Shown here: piece by piece, positions 49,652 through 64,000 of the stretch
Numbering within the stretch: position 1 is the stretch's first letter
Layout: each line of letters opens with the position of its first letter
NCBI GenBank assembly: GCA_017535315.1
Contig: JAFXUD010000010.1
Location: 1-64,000, forward strand
Source: Victivallales bacterium
GTDB taxonomy: Bacteria > Verrucomicrobiota > Lentisphaeria > Oligosphaerales > Oligosphaeraceae
Direction: 5' to 3'
Length of the DNA stretch: 64,000 nt
Notes under the pieces: model-generated
What the model was told of the DNA's origin: nothing
Database searches by the model: none
Seen by the model: the letters and a program-made list of their open reading frames with translations, nothing else
Program-made: the position numbers and the translations under genes

Positions 49652-50206
49652 CTATTCTGGTTTCTTTTCCAGTTTTTCTTCAGTATAAGGAGAAAACCCA
49701 AGTTCCTCCTGCAATACGATTGCCAATGGAATTCCGAACACAATGGGGAACACGGATGTATTGCCTAGTACACTGTAAGCAAACAACTTTGCATTCACCT
49801 CTGGATAGGCATAGGCGACGGCTGGCGTGATAATGGATGCCTCCAGAATCGCGCCCAGAACAATGACCAGCGTGTGAAAGAGCAAGTCTGGAATTGTCCT
49901 TAAGGCGAAAGGATGCTTTCCGAAGCGTTTCCAAAGGTACCAGATCATGAAGGGGCCAAGGAAATTAGCCGAAAAGCCAGCAAGAGAAGACCAGCGTAGC
50001 GCATCGTCGATGATGTCGGCAATTAAGTTCCCGAAGGCACAGACAACACAACCCAATGGACCATAGAATACCCCGTATATCGAAGCCAGTGCGCAAACGG
50101 GGCGTACATCCGAAAAGCCAGGGATCAGGTTCATTGCTTTGAAAGGAATTGCAACGACCAGATAAACGAATAACAGCAAGAAAAAACGAATAATTAGACG
50201 CTTCAT
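49652..50206 (-). CDS. ECF transporter S component-like membrane protein
   Basis: 184 residues with five or six membrane helices. NLIPGFSDVRPVCALASIYGVFYGPLGC and FGNLIADIIDDAL resemble the substrate-binding (S) subunits of ECF vitamin transporters, including QueT-like ones. The ligand is unknown and no ECF ATPase is nearby. Its start overlaps the stop of the DMT transporter by 4 bp (ATGA type), so the two are coupled. C-terminal tail is charged and cytosolic. Confidence 0.65.
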   Translation of the reverse strand: MKRLIIRFFLLLFVYLVVAIPFKAMNLIPGFSDVRPVCALASIYGVFYGPLGCVVCAFGNLIADIIDDALRWSSLAGFSANFLGPFMIWYLWKRFGKHPFALRTIPDLLFHTLVIVLGAILEASIITPAVAYAYPEVNAKLFAYSVLGNTSVFPIVFGIPLAIVLQEELGFSPYTEEKLEKKPE

Positions 50207-51156
50207 CGTTTTACCTCCTGCTTGGTGGACTCATATTCCGTGCGTTTTCCCCTGATATCCAATATTTCCATAAGATTGCCGAGAATGATAAAGGCTGCCC
50301 CTAGAAGGACGGAGGGCGTCAAATCAACTGGCGTGATTAAACTTGCGGGGAGGAATGTTCCCCAGATTATGGAAAACACAATCTCCAAAGAATAGACGAG
50401 GGTTGCGTTCGTGGCAGTAACCCTGCTCATTGCAATCGTGTTGAATGCCTGTGCTATTGCCACTATGAAATAGGAGTAGATGGTCCATGAGGCTATCAGC
50501 GTCCGTGACATAGGCAGGCCAAAAATGAGTTTGGGATCTTCCCACAGCCAGACCACCAGAGAGATTATTCCTACGAAAAAGCCCAGAAAAATGGCGATAG
50601 CCAATGGTTCATGTTTCTTGGCCATGTCGGCGAGAACGACGATGAAAATCGCTCGCAGAAGGTTACCGCCACCCATAAGGGCAAGTCCTGGCAACTGCTC
50701 CCCCTGCAACGATTTTCCCACTGCAAGCACAATGCCCGTACCTACGCACACCACAGATAGCAAGGTTTCCAATCCGATGCGTCGCCTTAGGCTCAACAGC
50801 ACAACTGGCAACAAGACAACAACCATGCAATATGTGAATGCCCCCGATGTAATATCGAATGACTTGACTCCGCAAATGAACATCGCGTTGTACATCGCAT
50901 TCAGCAGAGCAAGGATAGCGGAGCCTGTAACCAGTGAACGCCAATTCTTGCGCAGTGCCGCCAGCATTCGCTTGAAAAAAGCAGCAAGTAGCAGCAATGA
51001 TCCCGCAAATGACGTAACACAGGTGGTCGCAAATGCAGGAGTGCCTTCAGGAATGGAGGAATAGATGACAATCTCCATGGACCAGCACATGGTCACGCAG
51101 ATAAGGCATATGTTTGCTTGAAGTCGATTCATTTTTGTTGTCATGTTATTTAACAT
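50203..51156 (-). CDS. EamA/DMT-family transporter
   Basis: 317 residues with ten predicted membrane helices in two EamA repeats. The N terminus CLICVTMCWSMEIVIYSS and the later SLEIVFSIIWGTFLPASLI are typical of drug/metabolite exporters. The exact start is uncertain because no Shine-Dalgarno is seen; Met5 or Met9 are alternatives. First gene of a two-gene minus-strand operon with the S-component-like gene. Confidence 0.85.
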   Translation of the reverse strand: MLNNMTTKMNRLQANICLICVTMCWSMEIVIYSSIPEGTPAFATTCVTSFAGSLLLLAAFFKRMLAALRKNWRSLVTGSAILALLNAMYNAMFICGVKSFDITSGAFTYCMVVVLLPVVLLSLRRRIGLETLLSVVCVGTGIVLAVGKSLQGEQLPGLALMGGGNLLRAIFIVVLADMAKKHEPLAIAIFLGFFVGIISLVVWLWEDPKLIFGLPMSRTLIASWTIYSYFIVAIAQAFNTIAMSRVTATNATLVYSLEIVFSIIWGTFLPASLITPVDLTPSVLLGAAFIILGNLMEILDIRGKRTEYESTKQEVKR

Positions 51157-52139: not shown

Positions 52140-52273
52140 AGATGTTTCCCGCAGGACCACCCTGCGGTTTATCTGTAATTTACAGCCGAAAGACGCATCT
52201 TGCCATTCAACCTGCGCAAAAAAGATTTTACCCAGTGTCATCTGATTTTAGAAAAGTGATTTGACACGATGCC
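52140..52273 (+). repeat. Duplicated regulatory cassette, copy 1
   Basis: Shares long identical runs with 54247-54390, including TGTAATTTACAGCC, CGCATCTTGCCATTCAA, CGCAAAAAAG, TGATTTTAGAAAA and ATTTGACAC in the same order and spacing. It ends in the promoter of the Fe-S flavoprotein gene. Confidence 0.8.
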
Positions 52274-52288
52274 TATCCACATTACATT
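52261..52288 (+). promoter_or_regulatory. Promoter with TGACA half-sites for the Fe-S flavoprotein gene
   Basis: TTGACA (52261-52266) and TACATT (52283-52288) are 16 bp apart. GTGTCA (52235-52240) and TGACAC (52262-52267) form an inverted pair, matching the TGACA/TGTCA sites near the TetR gene, so the same regulator may bind here. Confidence 0.55.
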
Positions 52289-52328
52289 CATCAAAAACAA
52301 CCCCATAACCAACAATAAGGAACATGCC

Positions 52329-52874
52329 ATGAAAAAAGTGCTCGTCATTTCCGCGTCGCCTCGCAAGGGCGGCAATTCCGACCTTCTCTGCGATGAGTTC
52401 GTCCGCGGCGCAACCGAGGCAGGACACGAGGTCGAAAAGATCCGTCTTGCCGAGAAGAACGTGGGCTTCTGCAAGGGCTGCTATGCCTGCCAGAAGCTGA
52501 AGAAATGCTTCCAGAACGACGATGCCAACGAACTCATCGAAAAGATGCTCTCCGCAGACGTCATCGTCCTTGCCACGCCCGTCTATTTCTATTCGATGGA
52601 CGCGCAGCTCAAGGCGCTCATCGACCGCAGCGTCTCCCGCTGGGAGGACTTCGGACGCTTCAAGGGCACGGAGTTCTGGCTGGTCATCACGGCGGGCGAC
52701 GAGAACCGCGACATGATGTCTGCCACGTTGGAGGGACTGCGCGGCTTCATGCGCGACTGCATGGAAGGCTCCATCGAGCGCGGCGTCCTCTATGGCACGG
52801 GTGCGTATGAAAAGGGATCTGTTCGCTCGCTGCCCGTCTTCAAGGAAGCCTACGAGGCGGGAAGGAAATGCTGA
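52329..52874 (+). CDS. Flavodoxin-like Fe-S flavoprotein / NADPH-dependent FMN reductase family
   Basis: 181 residues. VLVISASPRKGGNSDLLCDEF is the FMN-binding N terminus. CKGCYACQKLKKC gives CX2CX2CX5C, the compact Cys motif of iron-sulfur flavoproteins, and VIVLATPVYFYSMDAQLKALIDR is the next family mark. It probably transfers electrons between a reductant and a cytosolic partner. Start at 52329 follows AAGGA; upstream in-frame ATGs do not. It shares a duplicated promoter with the TetR operon at 54.4 kb. Confidence 0.88.
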   Translation: MKKVLVISASPRKGGNSDLLCDEFVRGATEAGHEVEKIRLAEKNVGFCKGCYACQKLKKCFQNDDANELIEKMLSADVIVLATPVYFYSMDAQLKALIDRSVSRWEDFGRFKGTEFWLVITAGDENRDMMSATLEGLRGFMRDCMEGSIERGVLYGTGAYEKGSVRSLPVFKEAYEAGRKC

Positions 52875-52941
52875 GCAAGCATAGGAGAAAAACACTCTGA
52901 AAAAGACAATTCTGGCATTTGCCTTTCCATTTGTCGTGCTT

Positions 52942-54243
52942 CTATTGTAGAAGCGCTTGGTGTTTCGCCATCGTTGTGCGCAACGTGGCGGAATCAAGCT
53001 CCTTCGGCGAGCATTTTTGCGTCACGCATAGCGCGGCGGCAAATCCAGCCGCCTGCCCTGTGATGAAACAGCCTGGAATGACACGGATGGAGGCAAAGAC
53101 GTAGCGGTCGCAACTGATGCAGCGTCCGCAGACCAGAAGATTATTGGAATGGAGGGGAATGAGCGTACGGTATGGAATGCCGTAACTTTCGCCTCGCTTG
53201 TAGCGCTCCCCACTAAAAAGGCGTTTATGTTCTTCGAGCATTTCGCGCGTCGGTTGTACGGGATGTAGGTCTGCTGGAAAGTTGTAGCGACCGATTTCAT
53301 CGGGGAATGAACGGCGGGCAAGATAATCGTCGCGGCAAAGGAGATACTCGCCGATGATTCGGCGCGTTTCGCGGACGCCCAACATGGAGCCGCTGGCGGC
53401 GATGAAGGCGTTTTCAAATCCAGCGATGTGCTTTTGGTAGAACTTCTCGTATTCCACAAGCTGGCGGCGCGCGGTCACGAGTGCCTCCGAAACGGAGCGT
53501 TCATCCATCACATCGACGTTGAAGACGTGCCCGATGTTTGCGCCTGCGAGTTGCGGCGTCAGTCTTGTCATGCCTGTATGATGCCAGTCTGGCACACTCA
53601 GCTCGCCCGATGCAAAGGCCGCCGACAATGCTTCCAGCATGTTCTCGTCATTATGGCTAAATGTCCTGCCCGCGCGGTACGCCTCCCAGTCGATTCCCGA
53701 CCAGAGGGAACATAGGGTGGGCGGCATGGTCTCCCCCGAGTCGCCTCCAACTGCATATTCACAGCCGACCGCCACTGCGAGCACCCCATCGCCGCTTGCG
53801 TCAATGAACAGTTCAGCCTCCACCGCGAAGTTCCCTGAAATAGATTGGAAGCATACGGAGCGAATCTTGGCATTTTCGCAGTCAGCGGCAAAGAAATGAC
53901 AGCCGTACAGGACTTCGACCCCCGCCTCATCAAGCATCGCATCGAAAACACGCTTGACGTGTTCTGCCTCCAATGGACCGCCTGTGCCAAGGCGTTGCAG
54001 GAAATCTTCCCCGAAGCCTTTCATAAGGATGCGCGTACCGTCGGAATACGTCATCAGGACAGGCACCCGCGCCGCCGTACATAAGCCGCCAGGAAAGGAG
54101 TTCGCATCCAGCAGAATCACCTTTCTGCCAAGACGGACCGCGCTCACCGCAGCCGCGATACCTGATGGCCCCGCGCCAATTACGCAGATTTCCGCCCTAT
54201 ATTTGACTGGAACTTCAAGTGATAAATGAATTGTGGAGGTCAT
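52942..54243 (-). CDS. FAD-dependent oxidoreductase (FAD_oxidored family)
   Basis: 433 residues. The dinucleotide fold EICVIGAGPSGIAAAVSAVRLG starts near residue 17, followed by LLDANSFPGGLCTA. The C-terminal part has LVCGRCISCDRY and RVIPGCFITGQAAGFAAALC, typical of the PF12831-type proteins common in PVC bacteria. The reaction is unknown. The start at 54243 places the FAD motif at the expected distance; ATGs up to 114 bp earlier lie in the duplicated cassette and are rejected. It diverges from the TetR gene and converges on the Fe-S flavoprotein gene. Confidence 0.8.
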   Translation of the reverse strand: MTSTIHLSLEVPVKYRAEICVIGAGPSGIAAAVSAVRLGRKVILLDANSFPGGLCTAARVPVLMTYSDGTRILMKGFGEDFLQRLGTGGPLEAEHVKRVFDAMLDEAGVEVLYGCHFFAADCENAKIRSVCFQSISGNFAVEAELFIDASGDGVLAVAVGCEYAVGGDSGETMPPTLCSLWSGIDWEAYRAGRTFSHNDENMLEALSAAFASGELSVPDWHHTGMTRLTPQLAGANIGHVFNVDVMDERSVSEALVTARRQLVEYEKFYQKHIAGFENAFIAASGSMLGVRETRRIIGEYLLCRDDYLARRSFPDEIGRYNFPADLHPVQPTREMLEEHKRLFSGERYKRGESYGIPYRTLIPLHSNNLLVCGRCISCDRYVFASIRVIPGCFITGQAAGFAAALCVTQKCSPKELDSATLRTTMAKHQALLQ

Positions 54244-54246
54244 GGG

Positions 54247-54390
54247 AAATAATGTTGTTTCCACCGCAGAACCACTCTGGGGATATTTGTAATTTACAGC
54301 CTGATTTCGCATCTTGCCATTCAAGCTCCGCAAAAAAGTTTTTTTACACAGCGTCAAGTGATTTTAGAAAATTTATTTGACACAATGTCA
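54247..54390 (+). repeat. Duplicated regulatory cassette, copy 2
   Basis: The counterpart of 52140-52273, lying between the divergent FAD oxidoreductase and TetR genes. It contains the -35 element and first operator-like site of the TetR operon. Confidence 0.8.
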
Positions 54391-54435
54391 ATAAAGGTTA
54401 TATTATAACCATTACACGATGTCAGACTGTTGACA
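54377..54435 (+). promoter_or_regulatory. Promoter and two operator-like palindromes of the TetR operon
   Basis: TTGACA (54377-54382) and TATTAT (54401-54406) are 18 bp apart. TGACA-CAA-TGTCA (54378-54390) is a perfect inverted repeat over the -35, and TGTCA-GACTGT-TGACA (54420-54435) lies after the -10. Both would suit autoregulation by the adjacent TetR protein. Confidence 0.6.
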
Positions 54436-54453
54436 CTAGCAGGAGATTCGGCC

Positions 54454-55095
54454 ATGGCCATTTCAGAGAAAACCACGACAAGCAGGCGCGAGGAGATTGT
54501 CACTGCGTGCGAAAAGCTGTACAGAACGATGTCCTTCCGTGAAATCACGCTGAAGGAGATCAGCGAGGAGACCTCCTTCTCGCGTCCGTCAATCTACAAC
54601 TACTTCGCCACGAAGGAGGAGATATTCCTTGCACTGTTTGAGAGGGAGTATGACCGCTGGAATGCGGAACTAGAGGAAATCCATAGAGGTAAACATGCGC
54701 TTTCCGTCCGTGCGCTGGCGGAGAAGCTGGCGAAATCCCTGGCGGCGCGTCCGCAGCTGCTGAAGCTGCTGTCGATGAACCTCTACGACATGGAGGCCAA
54801 CAGCCGTCTGGAATGTCTGACCCGCTTCAAACATTCCTATGGTAGGGCGTTGGAGAACATGAAACGGATTCTCCTGAAGTTCCGCCCTGAGATGACAGGA
54901 CGACAGATACGCGATTTCATCTACGCCTTCTTCCCCTTCATGTTCGGCGTCTATCCCTACACGGAGGTGACCGAGAAGCAGAAGGAGGCGATGGAACAGG
55001 CGGGCATCGACTTCGAACTGTCGTCAGCTAGGGAACTCATTTTCATTTTCATATATAATTACCTCAACAACAAACAAGGAGGAAGCGACAAATGA
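54454..55095 (+). CDS. TetR-family transcriptional regulator
   Basis: 213 residues. The N-terminal helix-turn-helix (about 10-60) includes SRREEIVTACEKLYRTMSF, LKEISEETSFSRPSIYNYF and KEEIFLALF. The C-terminal domain (PF17924-like length) would bind a ligand. It starts at the ATG 54454, 8 bp after AGGAG; an in-frame TTG upstream is in the operator. It heads the redox operon and likely represses it through the TGACA/TGTCA palindromes. Its TGA overlaps the flavin reductase ATG by 4 bp. Confidence 0.9.
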   Translation: MAISEKTTTSRREEIVTACEKLYRTMSFREITLKEISEETSFSRPSIYNYFATKEEIFLALFEREYDRWNAELEEIHRGKHALSVRALAEKLAKSLAARPQLLKLLSMNLYDMEANSRLECLTRFKHSYGRALENMKRILLKFRPEMTGRQIRDFIYAFFPFMFGVYPYTEVTEKQKEAMEQAGIDFELSSARELIFIFIYNYLNNKQGGSDK

Positions 55096-55634
55096 AGAAG
55101 AACATCGGTGCATCGCTGGCACTCTATCCCGTCCCCGTGGTTGTCGTCGGCGCGATGGTGGACGGCAAGCCCACGTGGACGCTGGTCGCACATACGGGGA
55201 CCGTGGCGCACAGCCACCTGATGGTGTCGCTTGTGCAGGCGCACTACATCAACAAGGGCATCCGCGAGACGAAAAAGCTATCCATCAACGTGGTTGACGG
55301 AACATGGCTGAAGGAGGCCGATCGCATGGGGACCATAAGCGGACACAAGGTTGACAAGTCCCAGGCGTTCGCCTACACAATGGGGGAGTACGGGACGCCA
55401 TTGATCGACAAGGCAAAGGTCTCCATCGAATGCGAAGTGGACGGCAACTACGAGCTGGAAAACTTCGACCATTTCATCTGCAAGATTCTCGCAACCTACG
55501 CGGACGAAGGCATCCTGAATGAAATGGGAAAAATCAACTACCAGATATTCAAGCCCGCGCTCTTCGAGTTCCAGACATACTCGTATTTCGAGACGGGCGA
55601 CAAGCTTGGAGACTGCAGGAAAATGAACAATTAA
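55092..55634 (+). CDS. Flavin reductase-like FMN-binding protein
   Basis: 180 residues, single split-barrel domain. It begins LALYPVPVVVVGAMVDGKP, followed by KKLSINVVDGTWLKEADRMG and DHFICKILATYADE, matching flavin reductase-like proteins that bind FMN and use NAD(P)H. No signal peptide, so it acts in the cytosol and could reduce the flavoproteins encoded nearby. Translationally coupled to the TetR gene. Confidence 0.85.
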   Translation: MKKNIGASLALYPVPVVVVGAMVDGKPTWTLVAHTGTVAHSHLMVSLVQAHYINKGIRETKKLSINVVDGTWLKEADRMGTISGHKVDKSQAFAYTMGEYGTPLIDKAKVSIECEVDGNYELENFDHFICKILATYADEGILNEMGKINYQIFKPALFEFQTYSYFETGDKLGDCRKMNN

Positions 55635-55649
55635 GTACTAGGAACGCCT

Positions 55650-57041
55650 ATGACCAAGCGAACACTACTATTGACGATGAGCGTGGTTGCCGCAATTTCC
55701 CTGTCTGCCGTCGAGCCTCAGGTCGTGGACGTTCACAGCCACTTCATCACGGGAGGCTATCTTGAACTGCTGAAAAGGCACGATGCGCTGATGGACGAGC
55801 TCTATCCGATTCCAGAATGGTCGGAGGACGCGCTTCGTTCCTTCATGGAACAGGTAGGCATCGGCCTGTCCGTGCTGACCTCGACAGCGCCACAGCCTCA
55901 TTTCGGCGACGCGGCGGAAAGCGCAGCTGTCTGCCGTGCGATGAACGATGAAATCGCCGTCCTGGCCGCCAAGTCGCAGAGACGCCTCCTGTGGTGCGCT
56001 ACGCTGCCGCTGCCGTCGGTTCCAGAGGCGGTTGCCGAGGCTGAACGGGCACTTGGAAAGCTAGGCACGGCTGGAGTCAAGCTGCCGACCAATGCCCGCG
56101 GCCTCTACCTCGGTTCCCCTGAACTTGACCCGCTGATGGAGGTTCTGGACAGGCTGAAGGCCGTCGTGATCCTGCATCCCCACCGTCCCGAACCGTTCAA
56201 CGCCAGCCTGGCAGAGGGGCTTCCTCTTGCGATGTACGAATACCATGCGGAGACAACCCGTGCGCTGTCCCGTCTATTCGCCAGAAACGTCCCCGCCCGC
56301 CATCCGAACATCCGCTTTGTCGTCCCCCATGCGGGCGCGTTTCTGCCGTTGGCGCTGCCGAGGATGAAGGCGGTTCACCCGATTGTCAGGGCAAAGGGGC
56401 TGGCGGACGAAATCGACTGGGAAGCAAACATGAAATCGCTGTGGTTCGACCTGGCGGGTTCCACAACCGCCGAAAACGTCCACAGGCTGCTTGAAATCAC
56501 GACGCCCGACCATATCCTCTACGGTTCCGACTTCCCGTATGCACCCCCAAAAGCCTTGACAGCGAACCTTTCCCGCTTCCGTGCCGAACTGGAGGCAGAC
56601 CCGCTGCTCAAGCCACTGGCGGGAGACATCCTTGGTGGCAACGCCCGTCGGCTTTTCCTCGGCGATGCGAAGGAAGCGAGTGTCCCCGCTCCGCAACCAG
56701 CAGGCGAAATGCTCACGCGCATCGCGGAAATAGAGGTGTTCCACGAGTTCCTTCAGGAGTATCTGGCCGCAGCCTCGACGGTGGGCGCGGAATCCGTTGC
56801 GAAGGAGCCTGGTGTCATCTGCATCTTCCCGATGCAGCGCAAAGAGTCTCCCAACATCATCCGCATCGTGGAGATCTACCGCGACGAGGCCGCATATAAA
56901 TCCCATCTGGCCACGCCGCACTTTCTGAAATACAAGGAGGGGACGCTGCACATGGTCAAATCCCTGAATCTCGTGCCGATGAATCCCCTGGACGCCCCGA
57001 ACATGAACAGAATCTTCAGGAAAAAGCAATGGAAAGACTAA
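55650..57041 (+). CDS. Exported amidohydrolase fused to an antibiotic-biosynthesis-monooxygenase-like domain
   Basis: 463 residues with a signal peptide (about 1-20). The amidohydrolase-2 domain (about 25-345) shows VVDVHSHFI (metal-binding HxH), VVILHPHRPEP, FVVPHAGAF and ILYGSDFPYA with the catalytic Asp; ACMSD-like decarboxylases share this fold. Residues about 360-455 resemble an ABM (monooxygenase) domain: EVFHEFLQEYLAA and IVEIYRDEAAYKSHLATPHF. The fusion suggests cleavage or decarboxylation plus oxidation of an aromatic or lactone compound in the periplasm. It overlaps the next gene by 13 bp. Confidence 0.75.
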   Translation: MTKRTLLLTMSVVAAISLSAVEPQVVDVHSHFITGGYLELLKRHDALMDELYPIPEWSEDALRSFMEQVGIGLSVLTSTAPQPHFGDAAESAAVCRAMNDEIAVLAAKSQRRLLWCATLPLPSVPEAVAEAERALGKLGTAGVKLPTNARGLYLGSPELDPLMEVLDRLKAVVILHPHRPEPFNASLAEGLPLAMYEYHAETTRALSRLFARNVPARHPNIRFVVPHAGAFLPLALPRMKAVHPIVRAKGLADEIDWEANMKSLWFDLAGSTTAENVHRLLEITTPDHILYGSDFPYAPPKALTANLSRFRAELEADPLLKPLAGDILGGNARRLFLGDAKEASVPAPQPAGEMLTRIAEIEVFHEFLQEYLAAASTVGAESVAKEPGVICIFPMQRKESPNIIRIVEIYRDEAAYKSHLATPHFLKYKEGTLHMVKSLNLVPMNPLDAPNMNRIFRKKQWKD

Positions 57042-58066
57042 TCGTTCTCATCACGGTCATTTTGACCATTCAAGGAGCAGTTGCAATGGAAAACACCCTG
57101 ACACAGAAAGAACTCGCCATCGTCGATTTATCCGCCGCCGTCGCCCGTGGCGACCAGACGGCACTGGCCAATGCGCTGAACACAGGATTTGACGCGGGAC
57201 TCACGCTCAACGAGGCAAAGGAGCTGGTCGGACAGCTCTACGCCTACTGCGGCTTCCCGCGTGCCCTCAACGCCGCCGCCACGCTGATGAAGGTGGCCGC
57301 AGAGAAGAAGCCCGCCGAGGGGCGCGTCCCCAATCCACCGCCTGCGGGCAAGACCCTCGAATTTGGCACAGCCAACCAGACGAAGCTCTGCGGCGCACCC
57401 GTCAAAGGCGCGTTGTTCGACTTCCATCCGCAGCTGGACGAATACCTCAAGGCGCACCTCTTCGGAGACATCTTCGCAAGAGACAATCTGGATTGGCGCA
57501 CCCGTGAAATCGCCACCGTAGCCGCACTGGCGGCGCGCCCCGAGACGGAGCCGCAGATGAAGGCTCATATTGCCATCGCGAAAAACAACGGCGTCACCGA
57601 TGCGCAGGCGGCGGAGATTGTCGCCCGCGTTCGTCGTCCCTCCGATCCGTCGCGTCTCCCCGCCGACTGGTCGCCGATCCCCGTCGGGCAGCCCAACGAC
57701 GAATATGCGAAGTATTTCATTGGCAGGAGCTACCTGCATAAACTCACGCTGGACCAGGTTCCCGCCTTCGGCGTCACGTTCGAACCAGGATGTCGCAACA
57801 ACTGGCACATCCACCATGCAAAGACGGGCGGCGGGCAGATTCTCATCGTCACCGCTGGCGAGGGCTACTACCAGGAGTGGGGGAAGCCAGCGCGGCGCAT
57901 CCGCAAGGGTGACACGGTGAACATCCCCGCAGAAATCAAGCACTGGCATGGCGCGGCTCCCGACTGCTGGTTCCAGCACATCGCACTGGAGGTGCCTGGC
58001 ACAGAGCAGTCCAACGAATGGCTTGAAGCCGTCGATGAAAAGGCCTACACCGAAGCCACGAAATGA
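57029..58066 (+). CDS. Carboxymuconolactone decarboxylase-like protein fused to a cupin
   Basis: 345 residues. A signal peptide (LIVLITVILTIQGAVA, about 4-19) is followed by a CMD-type helical domain with FGDIFARDNLDWRTREIAT and AHIAIAKNNGVTDAQ, and by a C-terminal cupin with WHIHHAKTGGGQILIV and KHWHGAAPD, which would bind a metal. A second ATG at 57086 has AAGGAG 8 bp before it and would give a cytosolic form. CMD-cupin pairs often occur with flavodoxins and alcohol dehydrogenases in stress clusters; the substrate is unknown. Confidence 0.85.
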   Translation: MERLIVLITVILTIQGAVAMENTLTQKELAIVDLSAAVARGDQTALANALNTGFDAGLTLNEAKELVGQLYAYCGFPRALNAAATLMKVAAEKKPAEGRVPNPPPAGKTLEFGTANQTKLCGAPVKGALFDFHPQLDEYLKAHLFGDIFARDNLDWRTREIATVAALAARPETEPQMKAHIAIAKNNGVTDAQAAEIVARVRRPSDPSRLPADWSPIPVGQPNDEYAKYFIGRSYLHKLTLDQVPAFGVTFEPGCRNNWHIHHAKTGGGQILIVTAGEGYYQEWGKPARRIRKGDTVNIPAEIKHWHGAAPDCWFQHIALEVPGTEQSNEWLEAVDEKAYTEATK

Positions 58067-58116
58067 CAACGACAGATTTTTAAGAGCATAAACAAAAAAA
58101 ACAAGGAGAATACACA

Positions 58117-59283
58117 ATGCTGGGCAACTTCCAATTTCACAATCCGACTAAGCTCCATTTTGGAGAGAACGCGCTTGACTTCCTCGCCGACGAGCTGAAG
58201 AACTACGGGCCGACCGTGCTGCTTTCTTATGGCGGCGGCTCCATCAAGAAGAACGGCATCTACGACCAGGTCATGGCAATCTTGAAAAAGGCTGGCAAGA
58301 CCATCATCGACGACGGCGGTGTGATGCCCAACCCCACGCTGGACAGGATGCTTGAAGGCGCGGCACGGGCGAAAGCCAACAACGTGGACCTCATCCTCGC
58401 CGTGGGCGGCGGCTCCACCATCGACTACGCGAAGGGCGTCAGCGTCTCCGCCTGGTGCGACGAAGATCCGTGGGAGAAATACTACATGCGCTTCGAAGAA
58501 CCCACCTGCCGCATAATTCCCATTGGGAGCGTCCTCACAATTGCTGGCACGGGCAGCGAGATGAACGGTGGCAGCGTCATTAGCAACCACAAGGCGAACC
58601 TCAAGGTCGGCAAGGTCTTTGGTCCCGCCGTCTATCCGAAGTTCACCGTCCTCAACCCGCGCTTCACCTTCACCGTGCCAAAGCGGCAGATGGTGGCGGG
58701 CATCTTCGACATCATGAGCCACATCCTCGAACAGTATTTCAGCGGTGAGGACGACAACACCAGCGACTACATCGCCGAAGGCCTGATGCACTCCCTCATC
58801 CATTCATCCCGCATTGCCGTGAAGAATCCCGAGGACTACGAGGCACGGAGCAACATCATGTGGACGGCCACCTGGGCACTCAACACCCTTATCGCCATGG
58901 GCAAGACGACGGACTGGGAGGTCCACATGCTCGGTCACGCCGTCGGCACACTGACAGACGCCACGCACGGCATGACGCTCTCCGCCGTTTCCCTGCCATA
59001 CTACCGCCTCATCATGCCATACGGGCTGAAGAAGTTCGCGCGGTTCGCGACAAACATCTGGGGAATTGCGGCGGATGGCAAGTCCGACGAGCAGTTGGCC
59101 AACGAAGGGCTTGCTGCGTTTGAGGCTTGGATGCACGAAATCGGCGTCTCCATGAACATCACGGAGCTCGGCGCGACGAAGGAGATGCTCCCCGCCATCG
59201 CCGACGCGACCTTCATTCTCGACGGCGGCTACAAGAAGCTCACCCGCGAGGACGTGCTGGAAATCCTTCGCCAGAGCCTGTGA
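58117..59283 (+). CDS. Iron-containing alcohol dehydrogenase
   Basis: 388 residues of the YqhD/BDH type. GGGSIKKNGIYDQVM and AVGGGSTIDYAKG bind NAD(P)H, and metal ligands are in MVAGIFDIMSHILEQYF and MLGHAVGTLTDATHGMTLS (three His, one Asp). It reduces aldehydes or ketones in the cytosol. Good Shine-Dalgarno (aaggag). Sixth-from-last gene of the redox operon in spirit; it may detoxify carbonyls released by the exported enzymes. Confidence 0.92.
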   Translation: MLGNFQFHNPTKLHFGENALDFLADELKNYGPTVLLSYGGGSIKKNGIYDQVMAILKKAGKTIIDDGGVMPNPTLDRMLEGAARAKANNVDLILAVGGGSTIDYAKGVSVSAWCDEDPWEKYYMRFEEPTCRIIPIGSVLTIAGTGSEMNGGSVISNHKANLKVGKVFGPAVYPKFTVLNPRFTFTVPKRQMVAGIFDIMSHILEQYFSGEDDNTSDYIAEGLMHSLIHSSRIAVKNPEDYEARSNIMWTATWALNTLIAMGKTTDWEVHMLGHAVGTLTDATHGMTLSAVSLPYYRLIMPYGLKKFARFATNIWGIAADGKSDEQLANEGLAAFEAWMHEIGVSMNITELGATKEMLPAIADATFILDGGYKKLTREDVLEILRQSL

Positions 59284-59315
59284 TTCAAAATACTCAACCA
59301 TAGGAGAACACAACC

Positions 59316-59918
59316 ATGAAAAAAGCAGTAATGTCACTCGTTTGGGCACTGGCCGCGCTGCTGCCGTTTTGCTGCTGCGCAAAGGAAAACACAACTGTTA
59401 ACACTGAAAAAGGAGTCACAACCATGAACAACACAGGCAAATCACTCGTCGTCTGCTTCTCCGCCACGGGAACTACCAAGGGCGTTGCACAGCGCCTTGC
59501 GACCGCCATTGGTGCGGAATTCGTTGAAATCGTCCCCGCGAAGCCATACACTACAGCCGACCTGAACTGGCGTGACAAGAAGAGCCGCAGCTCCGTCGAG
59601 ATGGCCGACCGCAAGAGCCGCCCCGCCATCGCAAATGCCGTCCCCAACCTGGCGGACTACACGACAGTTTTCGTGGGCTTCCCGATCTGGTGGTACCGCG
59701 AGCCGTCCATCATCGACACCTTCATCGAAACGAACGCTGAGGCACTGGCTGGCAAGACTATCGTGCCGTTCGCCACATCGGGCGGCAGCGGCATGGGCGA
59801 TTCGACCGCCAACCTCCAGGCGCTTGCACCCAAGGCAAAGGTGACCGCAGGACGCCGTTTCAGCGCCTCCGTCGATGCCGACACGCTGAAGGCATGGGCG
59901 GTTGAGGTCGCGAAATAG
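59316..59918 (+). CDS. Exported (possibly dual-localised) flavodoxin
   Basis: 200 residues from 59316. The leader MKKAVMSLVWALAALLPFCCC looks like a signal or lipoprotein peptide. The flavodoxin core begins SLVVCFSATGTTKGVAQRL (FMN phosphate loop), with VGFPIWWYREPSIIDTFI and FATSGGSGMGDST later. A second ATG at 59424 has AAGGAG at 59411-59416 and would give a leaderless cytosolic flavodoxin; the upstream ATG also has AGGAG. Flavodoxins pass electrons to partners such as radical SAM enzymes, one of which (biotin synthase) ends this operon. Confidence 0.85.
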   Translation: MKKAVMSLVWALAALLPFCCCAKENTTVNTEKGVTTMNNTGKSLVVCFSATGTTKGVAQRLATAIGAEFVEIVPAKPYTTADLNWRDKKSRSSVEMADRKSRPAIANAVPNLADYTTVFVGFPIWWYREPSIIDTFIETNAEALAGKTIVPFATSGGSGMGDSTANLQALAPKAKVTAGRRFSASVDADTLKAWAVEVAK

Positions 59919-59941
59919 ACATCGCAAGTTGCGAGGGTGAT

Positions 59942-60598
59942 ATGAACCGACGTGATTTCATTCGGGACATGGCGATTGCCGCCGCGGGAATCAGCGCCGC
60001 TGGCCTTCTTGGCGGCGCTGCGACTGCCGAGGCGGCGACAGGTAAGATGCAGGGGAGAAAAGGCAAGATGAAGATACTGGTGCTGACTGGAAGTCCGCGC
60101 AGGAACGGCAATTCCGCGACGTTGACGGAGCATTTCATCAAGGGCGCGAAGGAGGCTGGGCATTCCGTCGAACGCTTCGATGCGGCCTTCAAGAAGGTGC
60201 ATCCGTGCATCGCCTGCAATTCCTGCGGCATGGACGGCCCGTGCGTGTTCAAGGACGACTTCGAGTTCGTCCGCAAGCACATCATCGATGCAGACTGCGT
60301 GGTGTTCGCCACGCCGATGTACTATTTCGGCATCTCCTCGCAACTCAAGGCGGTCATCGACCGCTTCTACGCCATCAACGGGCAGATTCACGTCCCCAAG
60401 AAGGCGGTCCTGCTGATGACCTACGCCAATTCAGCGGCCTCCGAGGCCGTGCCCATCAAGTCCCACTACGAAGTGCTGCTGAGATACCTGGGCTGGACGG
60501 ATGCGGGACAGGTCATCGCACCTGGCGTCTGGCCTGTCGGCGCAGTCAACCGCACTGAATACCCTGAACGTGCATACCAGCTTGGAAAGAGAATCTGA
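59942..60598 (+). CDS. Tat-exported Fe-S flavoprotein
   Basis: 218 residues. The leader NRRDFIRDMAIAAAGISAAG is a twin-arginine signal, used for folded cofactor-bearing proteins. The mature part has KILVLTGSPRRNGNSATL (FMN site), CIACNSCGMDGPCVF (CX2CX2CX5C) and VVFATPMYYFGISSQLKAVI, as in the protein at 52329-52874. An internal ATG at 60068 lies after a ggggag/aaagg region and would give a cytosolic form. Stop is 4 bp before bioB. It may shuttle electrons in the periplasm. Confidence 0.85.
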   Translation: MNRRDFIRDMAIAAAGISAAGLLGGAATAEAATGKMQGRKGKMKILVLTGSPRRNGNSATLTEHFIKGAKEAGHSVERFDAAFKKVHPCIACNSCGMDGPCVFKDDFEFVRKHIIDADCVVFATPMYYFGISSQLKAVIDRFYAINGQIHVPKKAVLLMTYANSAASEAVPIKSHYEVLLRYLGWTDAGQVIAPGVWPVGAVNRTEYPERAYQLGKRI

Positions 60599-60602
60599 AA
60601 AT

Positions 60603-61604
60603 ATGTTATTGAAAATGAAACTGAACCCTTTGATTGAAAACGCATACAAGGTCCTGGACGGCGGCAATCTCGAACGCAAGGAGGCCGTGGTTCTGGCACA
60701 CGAAATAACTGGCCCTGATATTCTGGACTTGGTTTCATTAGCAAACAAGGTGCGGCTCGCATTTGCGCCGAAAGACGCTGGCAGTTGCTCCATTGTCAAT
60801 GCAAAATGCGGTAAATGCGGCGAAAACTGTCGCTTCTGCGCCCAAAGCGCCCATTACCATACGCACATCGACACCTTTCCACTGCTGTCGGAAGCGGAGG
60901 TTGTTGACGCAGCCCAGAAGGTCTATGACAGCGGTGTCCGCATCTTCGGCTATGTCACCAGCGGACGTGGCTGGCTGAAGCCAGACGAAGATTTCCGTCG
61001 CATTCTTTCCACGTTGGACTGTCTGCACGAACGCTTCCCCGACATGAAGCTCTGCGTCTGTCTAGGCATTCTCTCCGATGAATGCGCACGGGAGCTTTCC
61101 CTCCACCATGTCTGGCGGTACAACATGAATCTCCAGACCTCGCCCGTCCGATATGCGGAACTGGTCGCCACCACCCACACCATAGAGGAGAAGATCGCCA
61201 CCATCCGCCTCATGCAGAAATACGGCATCACCAACTGTACAGGCGGCATCTTCGGGCTTGGCGAAAACTGGGAGGACCGAGTCGATATGGCGTTCGCAAT
61301 CCGCGACCTCAAGGTCGAGGCATCCACCCTCAACATACTCCTTCCTATTCCAGGCACGCCACTGGAGGCGCAGCCACCAGTCACTCCTGCGGATGCCACC
61401 AAGATCTTCGCGTTGTTCCGTCTCATCAATCCGACCATGACGCTCAAGTTCTGTGCGGGGCGCGAGACGACCATGAAGGATTTTCAGGGACTGCTGATGC
61501 TTTCAGGTCTTAATTCGCTGATGACAGGCGGATATCTTACTACCCGTGGCCGCCAGGTGGCAGACGATTTCGCCTTCTGGAAACTGCTTGGAGGATTCGG
61601 CTAA
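60603..61604 (+). CDS. bioB: Biotin synthase BioB (radical SAM)
   Basis: 333 residues. The radical SAM motif CX3CX2C is Cys72, Cys76, Cys79, in CGKCGENCRFCAQS. Later motifs are VTSGRGWLKP, YNMNLQTSPVRY, GGIFGLGENWEDRV and GRETTMKDFQGLLML. BioB inserts sulfur into dethiobiotin and needs flavodoxin as electron donor. It is 4 bp after the Tat flavoprotein gene. The start has no clear Shine-Dalgarno; Met5 is an alternative. No other biotin gene is in the window. Confidence 0.93.
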   Translation: MLLKMKLNPLIENAYKVLDGGNLERKEAVVLAHEITGPDILDLVSLANKVRLAFAPKDAGSCSIVNAKCGKCGENCRFCAQSAHYHTHIDTFPLLSEAEVVDAAQKVYDSGVRIFGYVTSGRGWLKPDEDFRRILSTLDCLHERFPDMKLCVCLGILSDECARELSLHHVWRYNMNLQTSPVRYAELVATTHTIEEKIATIRLMQKYGITNCTGGIFGLGENWEDRVDMAFAIRDLKVEASTLNILLPIPGTPLEAQPPVTPADATKIFALFRLINPTMTLKFCAGRETTMKDFQGLLMLSGLNSLMTGGYLTTRGRQVADDFAFWKLLGGFG

Positions 61605-61721: not shown

Positions 61722-64000
61722 ATGACAAGAAAACGAGTCGCATATTTCCTGGTATTTGCCCTCATGGCAGTCGTTTCGCTATGCCATGCCTACACGACGG
61801 AAAACGCCACTTTCATAGATTTCAGCGACAGCGGCGTAAATGTCACCGCAGGTCCATATACTGGCTATTCTGTGAAAAACACCACTGTCACACTTAGTGC
61901 CGCAGGAACATACGTGTTTTCAGGGGCTTGCTCAAACGGCTCAATCAAGGTCAAAAAAGCGACAACTGGCACAGTCAGGGTTGTTCTGGCTGGTGTGACG
62001 CTCACGGCGGGCGGCTCCGAAACAACGGATGACGAGGGGCTTGTCGTCCACACGGCGACGGCTCCGCTCCTTGTGAACAAAGACAACACGGTAATCATCG
62101 AGGCATACGCTGGTACAGTCAATACCCTGACGGACTCGCCATACAACAACGACGACAGCGCACCATCGGCCAGTACGGACACCGAAAACGCCGTCCTCAA
62201 GGTAAAGGCTGGCTCGACGGCGACTCTTTGCGGCACGGGAACGCTGAAAATCGTGTCCTACGGCAAGAATGGCATCAAAGCTGGTTCGGAGACGGATTCC
62301 CCTTCGCTTCTGATAATAAAAGAACTCACGCTAGATGTCACTGCAAAAGTGAACGACGGTATCTCCGTCGAGAACGCCGTTAAGTTCTACAGCGGCGACA
62401 TTAGCGTCAATGCCGTAGGCGATGCAATCCAGGCCGAGCCAGATGAGGAAGACGCAAGCGGTGCCGGCGATGTTGTCATCTATGGCGGTACGCTCAAGCT
62501 CACAGCTGATGGCGAGGGCATCCAGGCATCCAATGAACTATATGTCTCAGGCGGAAGCATAACCGCAACTGCTGGGGAAGACGGTCTCAAGGGCGAAAAG
62601 AACGTCTTCATCGACAGCGGCGCGATCAATGTCACATCCACGCTTGACGGCATACAATCCGACGAGGGTGGCGTCTATATAACTGACGGAACGGTAAACA
62701 TCAAGGCGGGCGGTGGAGCCTCCACCAAGCTGACAGGCGATTCCGACAGTTGCAAGGGCATCAAAGCGGAGACGACACTGTTCGTCACGGCAGGCGACTT
62801 CGTAGTCAACTCCGCCGACGACTGCCTCCACTCGGACGACACCATCGCCATCACGGGAGGCATGTTCACGCTGGCTACCAGCACTTCTGGCAAAGACTCC
62901 ACCTACAGCGGCGGCGATGCCATCCATGCCGACTACACGCTTGTCGTCGGAACAGACGGCGGCGGTGTCACGACACCGTCCATCACCATCACCTCCTGCT
63001 ACGAAGGGCTTGAGGCGGCGAAAATCTACGTTCTGTCAGGCTATGTCGATGTCACCTCCTCGGACGATGGCTTCAACGCAGGCAATAAGAACATTGCATC
63101 AGAAAGCACAACCGCCTTCTCCCTGAACATCTATGGAGGGGAAATCCATATCAAGGCCGCAGGCGACGGGCTTGACTCGAACGGGAACATGAAAATCTAC
63201 GGTGGAACCACTGAGGTGAACTGCACGGCAAACGGCGGAAACAACGCGCTCGACACGGCGGACAGGGGCTACCTCTCCGTATCAGGGAGCGGAAGCCTGG
63301 TGACCCTTGGTCCAAGCGACATGGCCGTCACCCCTAATGCCAACTATTCGACCGTGCCATACGTGACATTCGGCAGCGCCAGCCAGGGAGGTCCTGGAGG
63401 CGGACCTGGTGGCTTTGGCGGCTCTTCCTCCAGCACAAGCATCTCCATCCCATCGGGGACAACCTGGTACATCAGGAACTCGTCGGGGACAACGCTTGCA
63501 ACAGGAACGACTGCATCCACGGTCAGCTATGTGGTCTTCGCTTCCTCCACCCTTACGGCAAACCAGACCTACTACCTGGTTTACGGCTCGACCCAGAAAT
63601 CCGCAACAGCGACCGCCTCGAAGGCGAGTTCCGTCACGCAGGAAAACGTTCCTTCTGTCGCCCAGGACGTATCGGCATATGTCGGCACGGGAGCGGAGGA
63701 GTACCTGCTGACGGTGAACGGCGTGACCACAGAGAAGGCGCAAGGTCAGACCATCTCCGTCACGGCGGAGGAAAAGGAAGGCTCGACCTTCCTCTCGTGG
63801 TCTGCTGTGGGAATCGAACTTGATGACCCTGCCGCAAGGACGCAGACATTCAACATGCCTGCCAACGACGTCACGCTGACCGCAAACTACGATGACGACA
63901 GCAACCCGATCCTTCTCTTCAGCAATACCTCCATAACCCGTGTTTCGGGGACTGCAAGAGGATATACACTGGACGGCACGACTCTTTCCATCACCAGCGC
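61722..64000 (+). CDS. Large secreted beta-helical carbohydrate-binding-type protein (5' part)
   Basis: At least 759 residues, open to the window end. A signal peptide (about 1-23) is followed by a DUF4353-like (carbohydrate-binding, beta-helical) region of repeats such as GDAIQAEPD, GEGIQASNELYVSGG, DGLKGEKNVFIDSG and DGIQSDEGGVYITDG, to about residue 540. A Gly/Pro/Ser linker is followed by a beta-sandwich stretch and a Listeria-Bacteroides-type repeat (FLSWSAVGIELDD, TFNMPANDVTLTANY). The C terminus is not visible. Likely a surface adhesin or glycan-binding protein. Start chosen by GAGGTGA upstream. Confidence 0.8.
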   Translation, partial: MTRKRVAYFLVFALMAVVSLCHAYTTENATFIDFSDSGVNVTAGPYTGYSVKNTTVTLSAAGTYVFSGACSNGSIKVKKATTGTVRVVLAGVTLTAGGSETTDDEGLVVHTATAPLLVNKDNTVIIEAYAGTVNTLTDSPYNNDDSAPSASTDTENAVLKVKAGSTATLCGTGTLKIVSYGKNGIKAGSETDSPSLLIIKELTLDVTAKVNDGISVENAVKFYSGDISVNAVGDAIQAEPDEEDASGAGDVVIYGGTLKLTADGEGIQASNELYVSGGSITATAGEDGLKGEKNVFIDSGAINVTSTLDGIQSDEGGVYITDGTVNIKAGGGASTKLTGDSDSCKGIKAETTLFVTAGDFVVNSADDCLHSDDTIAITGGMFTLATSTSGKDSTYSGGDAIHADYTLVVGTDGGGVTTPSITITSCYEGLEAAKIYVLSGYVDVTSSDDGFNAGNKNIASESTTAFSLNIYGGEIHIKAAGDGLDSNGNMKIYGGTTEVNCTANGGNNALDTADRGYLSVSGSGSLVTLGPSDMAVTPNANYSTVPYVTFGSASQGGPGGGPGGFGGSSSSTSISIPSGTTWYIRNSSGTTLATGTTASTVSYVVFASSTLTANQTYYLVYGSTQKSATATASKASSVTQENVPSVAQDVSAYVGTGAEEYLLTVNGVTTEKAQGQTISVTAEEKEGSTFLSWSAVGIELDDPAARTQTFNMPANDVTLTANYDDDSNPILLFSNTSITRVSGTARGYTLDGTTLSITS

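Follow-up and report, generated by a model that had tools for sequence, protein, structure and literature searches.

The subject of this study is a run of eight genes in a 64,000-nucleotide stretch of DNA from a Victivallales bacterium (positions 1 to 64,000 of contig JAFXUD010000010.1, GenBank assembly GCA_017535315.1). This stretch, here called the window, is contig C47 of a 4.9 Mb draft genome that is 95.6% complete. The unit that these genes form, at 54454-61604, is real, conserved as a mosaic, regulated and, by its leaders, partly exported, and it appears to be a variation on a familiar type of stress operon. It is probably a TetR-repressed operon directed against electrophile, quinone or aldehyde stress, with one arm in the cytosol and another in the envelope. 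TetR binding, co-transcription, the class of the inducer, the substrates and the envelope location of the proteins are what we infer from the comparisons below. The initial annotation of this DNA had proposed a TetR-led, partly exported redox/detoxification system, and our results support that proposal.

Gene content of the operon

Domain searches gave the following genes, with the starts picked by their Shine-Dalgarno boxes.

54454-55095, plus strand: TetR-family repressor, predicted autoregulator (PF00440 and PF17929 above cut-off)
55092-55634, plus strand: FlvR, flavin reductase-like (PF01613)
55650-57041, plus strand: AH-ABM, fusion of amidohydrolase_2 and ABM with a Sec-type leader (PF04909 and PF03992)
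57029-58066, plus strand: CMD-cupin with leader (PF02627 above cut-off, Cupin_2 slightly below; TM1010-like cupin)
58117-59283, plus strand: FeADH, YqhD/BDH-like iron-containing alcohol dehydrogenase (PF00465/PF25137; YqhD/BDH structures)
59316-59918, plus strand: flavodoxin (Fld) with leader (PF12682)
59942-60598, plus strand: FSF2, Fe-S flavoprotein with a twin-arginine (Tat) leader, RRDF, and the motif CX2CX2CX5C (PF03358)
60603-61604, plus strand: BioB, type-II-like biotin synthase (TIGR00433)

All eight are on the same strand and the spacing is 50 bp or less throughout, which confirms the TetR-led run first described, with its genes and domains as claimed. The gaps are -4 bp between TetR and FlvR, +15 between FlvR and AH-ABM, -13 between AH-ABM and CMD-cupin, +50 between CMD-cupin and FeADH, +32 between FeADH and Fld, +23 between Fld and FSF2 and +4 between FSF2 and BioB. 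For TetR, 54454 is a better start than 54430, and for BioB 60603 is more likely than 60501. No terminator-like site was found between FSF2 and bioB, and a single transcript is therefore possible.

Operators and promoter of TetR

Two 13-bp palindromes of the form TGACACGATGTCA are located 5' of TetR.

54378-54390, plus strand: operator O1, TGACACAATGTCA, over the -35 box (TTGACA at 54377) of a promoter-like match; conserved 5' of five TetR orthologues
54412-54424, plus strand: operator O2, TTACACGATGTCA, 3' of the -10 box (TATATT), its centre 34 bp from that of O1; conserved in five loci

O1 spans the TTGACA box; between O1 and O2 is the -10-like TATATT. The same arrangement of two palindromes was seen 5' of all five orthologues found, that is, in the window and in genomes G001, G012, G020 and G024, where TetR is 84-88% identical. 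The pairs are of the TGACAC-G/A-ATGTCA type, and their spacing, counted by hand, is 33-34 bp. Two Cys are kept in all aligned TetR orthologues. The whole genome contains nine sites with at most one mismatch to the operator pattern, two of which are O1 and O2; with at most two mismatches there are 94 sites, as compared to 34 with a reversed control. The comparative evidence is thus strong that this TetR, with its helix-turn-helix domain and a palindromic operator over its own promoter, would bind there and regulate its own operon. A wider TetR regulon was also considered. The other near-matches examined fall in open frames of at least 100 codons, which is a weak test in DNA of this composition, and we claim no further targets.

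Export leaders and internal starts

FSF2 has a twin-arginine (RR-x-F) leader that is present in 17 of its 18 homologues, the one from a Bacteroidaceae metagenome-assembled genome (MAG) included, and the CX2CX2CX5C motif is likewise kept in 17/18 (two members of the set, L004 and L037, are the same contig). FSF2 is therefore predicted to be exported via Tat, as had been suggested for it from the start. Hydrophobic leaders are found on CMD-cupin, flavodoxin and AH-ABM as well, also in the relatives.

Unexpectedly, in three of these proteins the leader is immediately followed by a conserved internal Met: CMD-cupin (57086), flavodoxin (59424) and FSF2 (about 60068, the Met of MKILV). The Met of CMD-cupin has AAGGAG 8 nt upstream, here and in most family members, and that of flavodoxin has AAGGAG 8 nt upstream here and AAGGA(G) 8-9 nt upstream in all four close orthologues. 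The Shine-Dalgarno box of FSF2 is weaker and variable. A match of at least 6 bases precedes only 14 of 870 internal Met codons in the family loci. The CMD-cupin box is lost by synonymous change in two orthologues, and at class level its GGAGG falls on Leu/Thr-Glu-Ala codons, so that codon use may explain part of the internal boxes. Either cytosolic proteins have acquired leaders, or each gene yields both forms. It is conceivable, if rather unlikely, that the operon is an undescribed stress module in which one gene gives two forms of the protein, a long one that a Sec or Tat leader directs to the envelope and a short one that stays in the cytosol and starts at a conserved internal Met with a Shine-Dalgarno box of its own (CMD-cupin, flavodoxin, possibly FSF2). 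If so, one operon would defend both compartments against the same electrophile.

Conservation across relatives

A search of 98 other genomes from across the class gave CMD-cupin homologues in 26; the matches in G008, G023 and G035 were weak or partial, and the remaining 23 genomes were kept. Gene order was read around 29 loci in these relatives, which together with the window makes 30 CMD-cupin loci in 24 genomes, some of them cut by contig ends. Within 6 kb and on the same strand, flavodoxin was found at 22 of the 30, an Fe-S flavoprotein at 21, ABM at 15, an aldo-keto reductase at 15, DUF362 at 10, and BioB at one, the window itself. Counting just the 19 loci that have 5 kb or more on each side gives 15 for flavodoxin, 14 for the Fe-S flavoprotein, 13 for ABM, 11 for the aldo-keto reductase and 6 for DUF362. 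The linkage of the core genes is far beyond chance. Conservation of the gene order outside this strain, the check that the initial annotation had set for itself, thus holds for the core; as a mosaic the core recurs in 23 further genomes from the family and the class, and part of it in the Bacteroidaceae MAG.

The regulators vary, with TetR in the window and four relatives, a divergent LysR at many class-level loci and MerR-like proteins at others. The gene order is TetR-FlvR-AH_ABM-CMD-FSF2 in G024, TetR-FeADH-Fld-FSF2 in G012, CMD-FeADH-Fld in G003 and TetR-FSF1-CMD in G001, the last with a 25-residue FlvR remnant before CMD; contig ends cut the operons of G012 and G001. The operon of the window is thus a sum of modules seen apart elsewhere. 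FlvR adjoins TetR in G024 and is left as remnants in G001 and G020; in G020 its first ten residues are joined to the ABM part, either a deletion scar or an assembly fault. AH-ABM has a 79% identical full-length fusion in G024 (locus L004), and a 50% relative in the Bacteroidaceae MAG is split into two genes beside an FSF2 homologue. FeADH is 94% identical in G003 and 90% in G012.

No published description of this cluster turned up in the literature searches made. The cluster of CMD-cupin, flavodoxin, Fe-S flavoprotein, ABM and aldo-keto reductase is widespread and apparently uncharacterised. The window shows that it can be organised as one regulated unit, in which the TetR operator is clear, the Tat export leader is conserved and cytosolic/envelope pairs occur; its inducer is thereby directly testable.

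At two loci, L063 (G076:C35) and L064 (G075:C44), CMD-cupin and flavodoxin are fused into one protein of 514 residues, next to genes for a Ser/Thr protein kinase and a leader-bearing zinc alcohol dehydrogenase. We also considered whether the flavodoxin has a membrane electron donor of its own, since in G003 the gene directly after it encodes a 4Fe-4S membrane protein. In the genome studied here, however, the 86% orthologue of that protein is on another contig (L154), behind a hybrid cluster protein, and we do not claim such a donor. Locus L154 (G000:C61, 1-6350) has the order TetR, hybrid cluster protein (prismane) and 4Fe-4S membrane protein, and upstream of these lies an Fe-S aldo-keto reductase.

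FSF1 and its copied promoter

Another Fe-S flavoprotein gene is found upstream of the operon, and a minus-strand gene lies between them.

52149-52271, plus strand: copy of the TetR promoter region 5' of FSF1 (TTGACA at 52261; promoter-like match at 52261-52288)
52329-52874, plus strand: FSF1, cytosolic Fe-S flavoprotein-like NAD(P)H/FMN oxidoreductase with CX2CX2CX5C (PF03358/PF02525)
52942-54243, minus strand: FAD-dependent oxidoreductase (FAD_oxidored), divergent from TetR, likely ATG start near 54243 (PF12831, 6e-99)

The sequences 52149-52271 and 54264-54387 are identical in 102 of 125 alignment columns, the TTGACA box included, as counted on the printed alignment. The copy has one degenerate operator, TGACACGATGCCT, at 52262-52274, with 2 mismatches. 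FSF1 and the TetR operon are not co-transcribed, because the FAD oxidoreductase gene intervenes. The promoter that FSF1 was said to share with the operon is thus a duplicated sequence and not the start of one transcript. In G001, which is of the same genus, FSF1 is located directly inside the TetR operon, which suggests that the two belong to the same regulon.

FSF1 and FSF2 both have the flavodoxin-like fold (PF03358/PF02525) and a compact Cys motif that is kept in homologues, as in the Methanosarcina-type iron-sulfur flavoprotein; the Fe-S cluster is predicted, and FSF2 differs from that type in its Tat leader. The FAD oxidoreductase had no match in the related loci and is probably not part of the system. 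The promoter of its gene may overlap the TetR operators.

The biotin synthase gene

BioB scores 326.7 bits with TIGR00433 (cut-off 225), and has the CX3CX2C motif as CGENCRFC and a PF06968 BATS domain; the genome holds no other full BioB match. Against 8vdw and 8vcw, which we take to be type II (4Fe-5S) biotin synthases, it scores 252 and 188 bits, far higher than the 132 bits against E. coli BioB (1r30), and the FC at the position of Cys97 in the E. coli protein aligns to no Cys. By these sequence comparisons the BioB of the window is type-II-like in the division of biotin synthases into types I and II (PMC11099021). Unlike the type II enzymes it is encoded by an orphan gene that closes a redox operon, since bioA, bioD and bioF all lack a match above cut-off in the genome; bioD was not found, and the bioA and bioF matches are far below. 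No BioY was found in the genome either, an ECF-like protein at 49655-50206 being below cut-off.

The gene is absent from the 29 other CMD-cupin loci, and none of the core genes is present beside BioB in 20 other BioB loci. In G004, G007, G008 and G017, BioB sits with bioA and bioD. The nearest BioB (85%, G012) is located between Na/Pi cotransporter-like and UvrA-like genes, named from reading the sequences, and the TetR-FeADH-Fld-FSF2 operon of that genome is on a different contig. In the tree, BioB of the window forms a fully supported pair with that of G012, and the copy in G002, which is of the same genus, is distant from it. This placement suggests that the gene was probably either acquired by transfer or retained through differential loss. 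It adjoins the module by accident or as a peculiarity of this lineage, and the two are linked only here. We have therefore dropped BioB from the system, as the other loci show no linkage in either direction and bioA, bioD and bioF are missing.

Possible function and rival explanations

The detoxification reading is drawn from the protein families, all of which fit it: the YqhD/BDH-type alcohol dehydrogenase, in which the metal-ligand motifs are kept, the FMN_red and flavodoxin folds, the PcaC-type CMD, the ABM domain and the decarboxylase-type amidohydrolase. Furthermore, the related clusters add aldo-keto reductases (15 of the 30 loci) and DUF362 proteins. YqhD-type alcohol dehydrogenases, flavin-dependent reductases and CMD-family proteins are known from electrophile responses (PMC5297802, PMC7464077, PMC7950407), and in E. 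coli YqhD detoxifies glyoxal while the TetR-type NemR senses electrophiles (PMC5297802). An AhpD-like peroxidase role for the CMD part was rejected, as no AhpD-type CXXC motif was found in CMD-cupin.

Probably a reactive electrophile (an aldehyde, a quinone or an aromatic breakdown product) releases TetR from the two operators at its own promoter, and the operon is thereby induced. In the cytosol the YqhD-like aldehyde reductase, the flavin reductase and FSF1 would reduce carbonyls and quinones, and beyond the inner membrane AH-ABM, CMD-cupin, flavodoxin and Tat-exported FSF2 would deal with compounds of the same class. FSF1 would join the regulon via its copied promoter. BioB would have been added at the operon end in this lineage and, if expressed, probably converts imported dethiobiotin to biotin.

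Parts of this arrangement are known from E. coli and Pseudomonas. The yqhC-yqhD-dkgA genes of E. coli (glyoxal/furfural response) share with it the YqhD-type aldehyde reductase, the partnership with an aldo-keto reductase that many of the related clusters show and a likely role in aldehyde detoxification, but their regulator YqhC is AraC-type where the window has TetR (LysR or MerR in relatives), and the window adds flavodoxin, Fe-S flavoproteins, CMD-cupin and AH-ABM, several with export leaders. As in nemR-nemA-gloA, the TetR electrophile sensor operon of E. coli, a TetR-family repressor heads an operon with flavin-dependent reductases; the window differs in having neither NemA (old yellow enzyme) nor GloA and a TetR below the named-family cut-offs. 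The sensor Cys of NemR are Cys106 and Cys21/Cys116, and the two Cys of the window TetR are kept in the alignment with its own orthologues. The reactive chlorine responses of Pseudomonas (rclX) and E. coli (rclABC) likewise combine a CMD/AhpD-family protein, RclX, with flavin redox enzymes against oxidant stress, but the CMD of the window is PcaC-like, the AhpD-type CXXC reported for RclX (PMC7950407) was not found in it, and there is no RclA, RclB or RclC.

Some results weigh against a two-arm stress operon. FeADH scores 259.8 bits with PRK15138, the cut-off of which is 645, and is thus YqhD/BDH-like and not a YqhD proper; TetR matches no named-regulator family above cut-off, NemR included; and the leaders of CMD-cupin and flavodoxin precede internal starts that could yield cytosolic forms. 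The PcaC, decarboxylase and ABM folds also fit aromatic catabolism about as well. The main rival is that the operon serves the catabolism of an aromatic or phenolic (lignin-derived) compound: the amidohydrolase would carry out a decarboxylation, CMD-cupin and ABM would convert intermediates derived from the ring, and the flavin enzymes would give reduced flavin. The amidohydrolase part does resemble aromatic-acid decarboxylases, with matches to carboxyvanillate, ACMS and dihydroxybenzoate decarboxylases and to oxalomesaconate hydratase, and the PcaC-type CMD and the ABM domain point the same way. However, the domain search of the operon turned up neither a ring-cleaving dioxygenase nor a transporter or CoA ligase, most related clusters keep the redox core but lack the amidohydrolase part, and the YqhD-like alcohol dehydrogenase and the aldo-keto reductases fit stress better. 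We regard catabolism as unlikely and a stress response as the better explanation.

Two further explanations give BioB a role. According to the initial annotation, flavodoxin and flavin reductase are the known donor set of BioB, and periplasmic redox might be linked to its radical SAM chemistry; the flavodoxin, the flavin reductase and the Fe-S flavoproteins would then tie the redox state of the envelope to BioB catalysis. The bioB gene does follow FSF2 on the same strand at a distance of 4 bp, no terminator-like site separates the two, and a flavodoxin with a reductase activates BioB in E. coli. The E. coli reductase is Fpr (PMC11099021), however, and the one in the operon is PF01613; the flavodoxin and FSF2 carry export leaders, while BioB is cytosolic; and the linkage is not conserved, the nearest BioB being in an unrelated context. 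Both claims fail on these points, and a donor set for BioB is hardly credible. The other explanation, that BioB is functional in this lineage and is co-induced by the repressor as a replacement when Fe-S damage under stress raises the demand for biotin synthase, is highly improbable, if less so. BioB is an Fe-S enzyme sensitive to oxidants, and its tight placement and possible co-transcription would agree with such a role, but it is seen in one genome only, and without bioA, bioD and bioF the cell needs dethiobiotin from outside for the BioB step. The result removes a misleading link between BioB and the stress operon.

Flanking genes

Directly 3' of the operon, at 61722-63998, the window encodes a protein with Cthe_2159 carbohydrate-binding-like and InlB B-repeat-like domains. 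Upstream, at 49655-51156 on the minus strand, the gene of a weakly ECF transporter S-component-like protein overlaps an EamA transporter gene by 4 bp.

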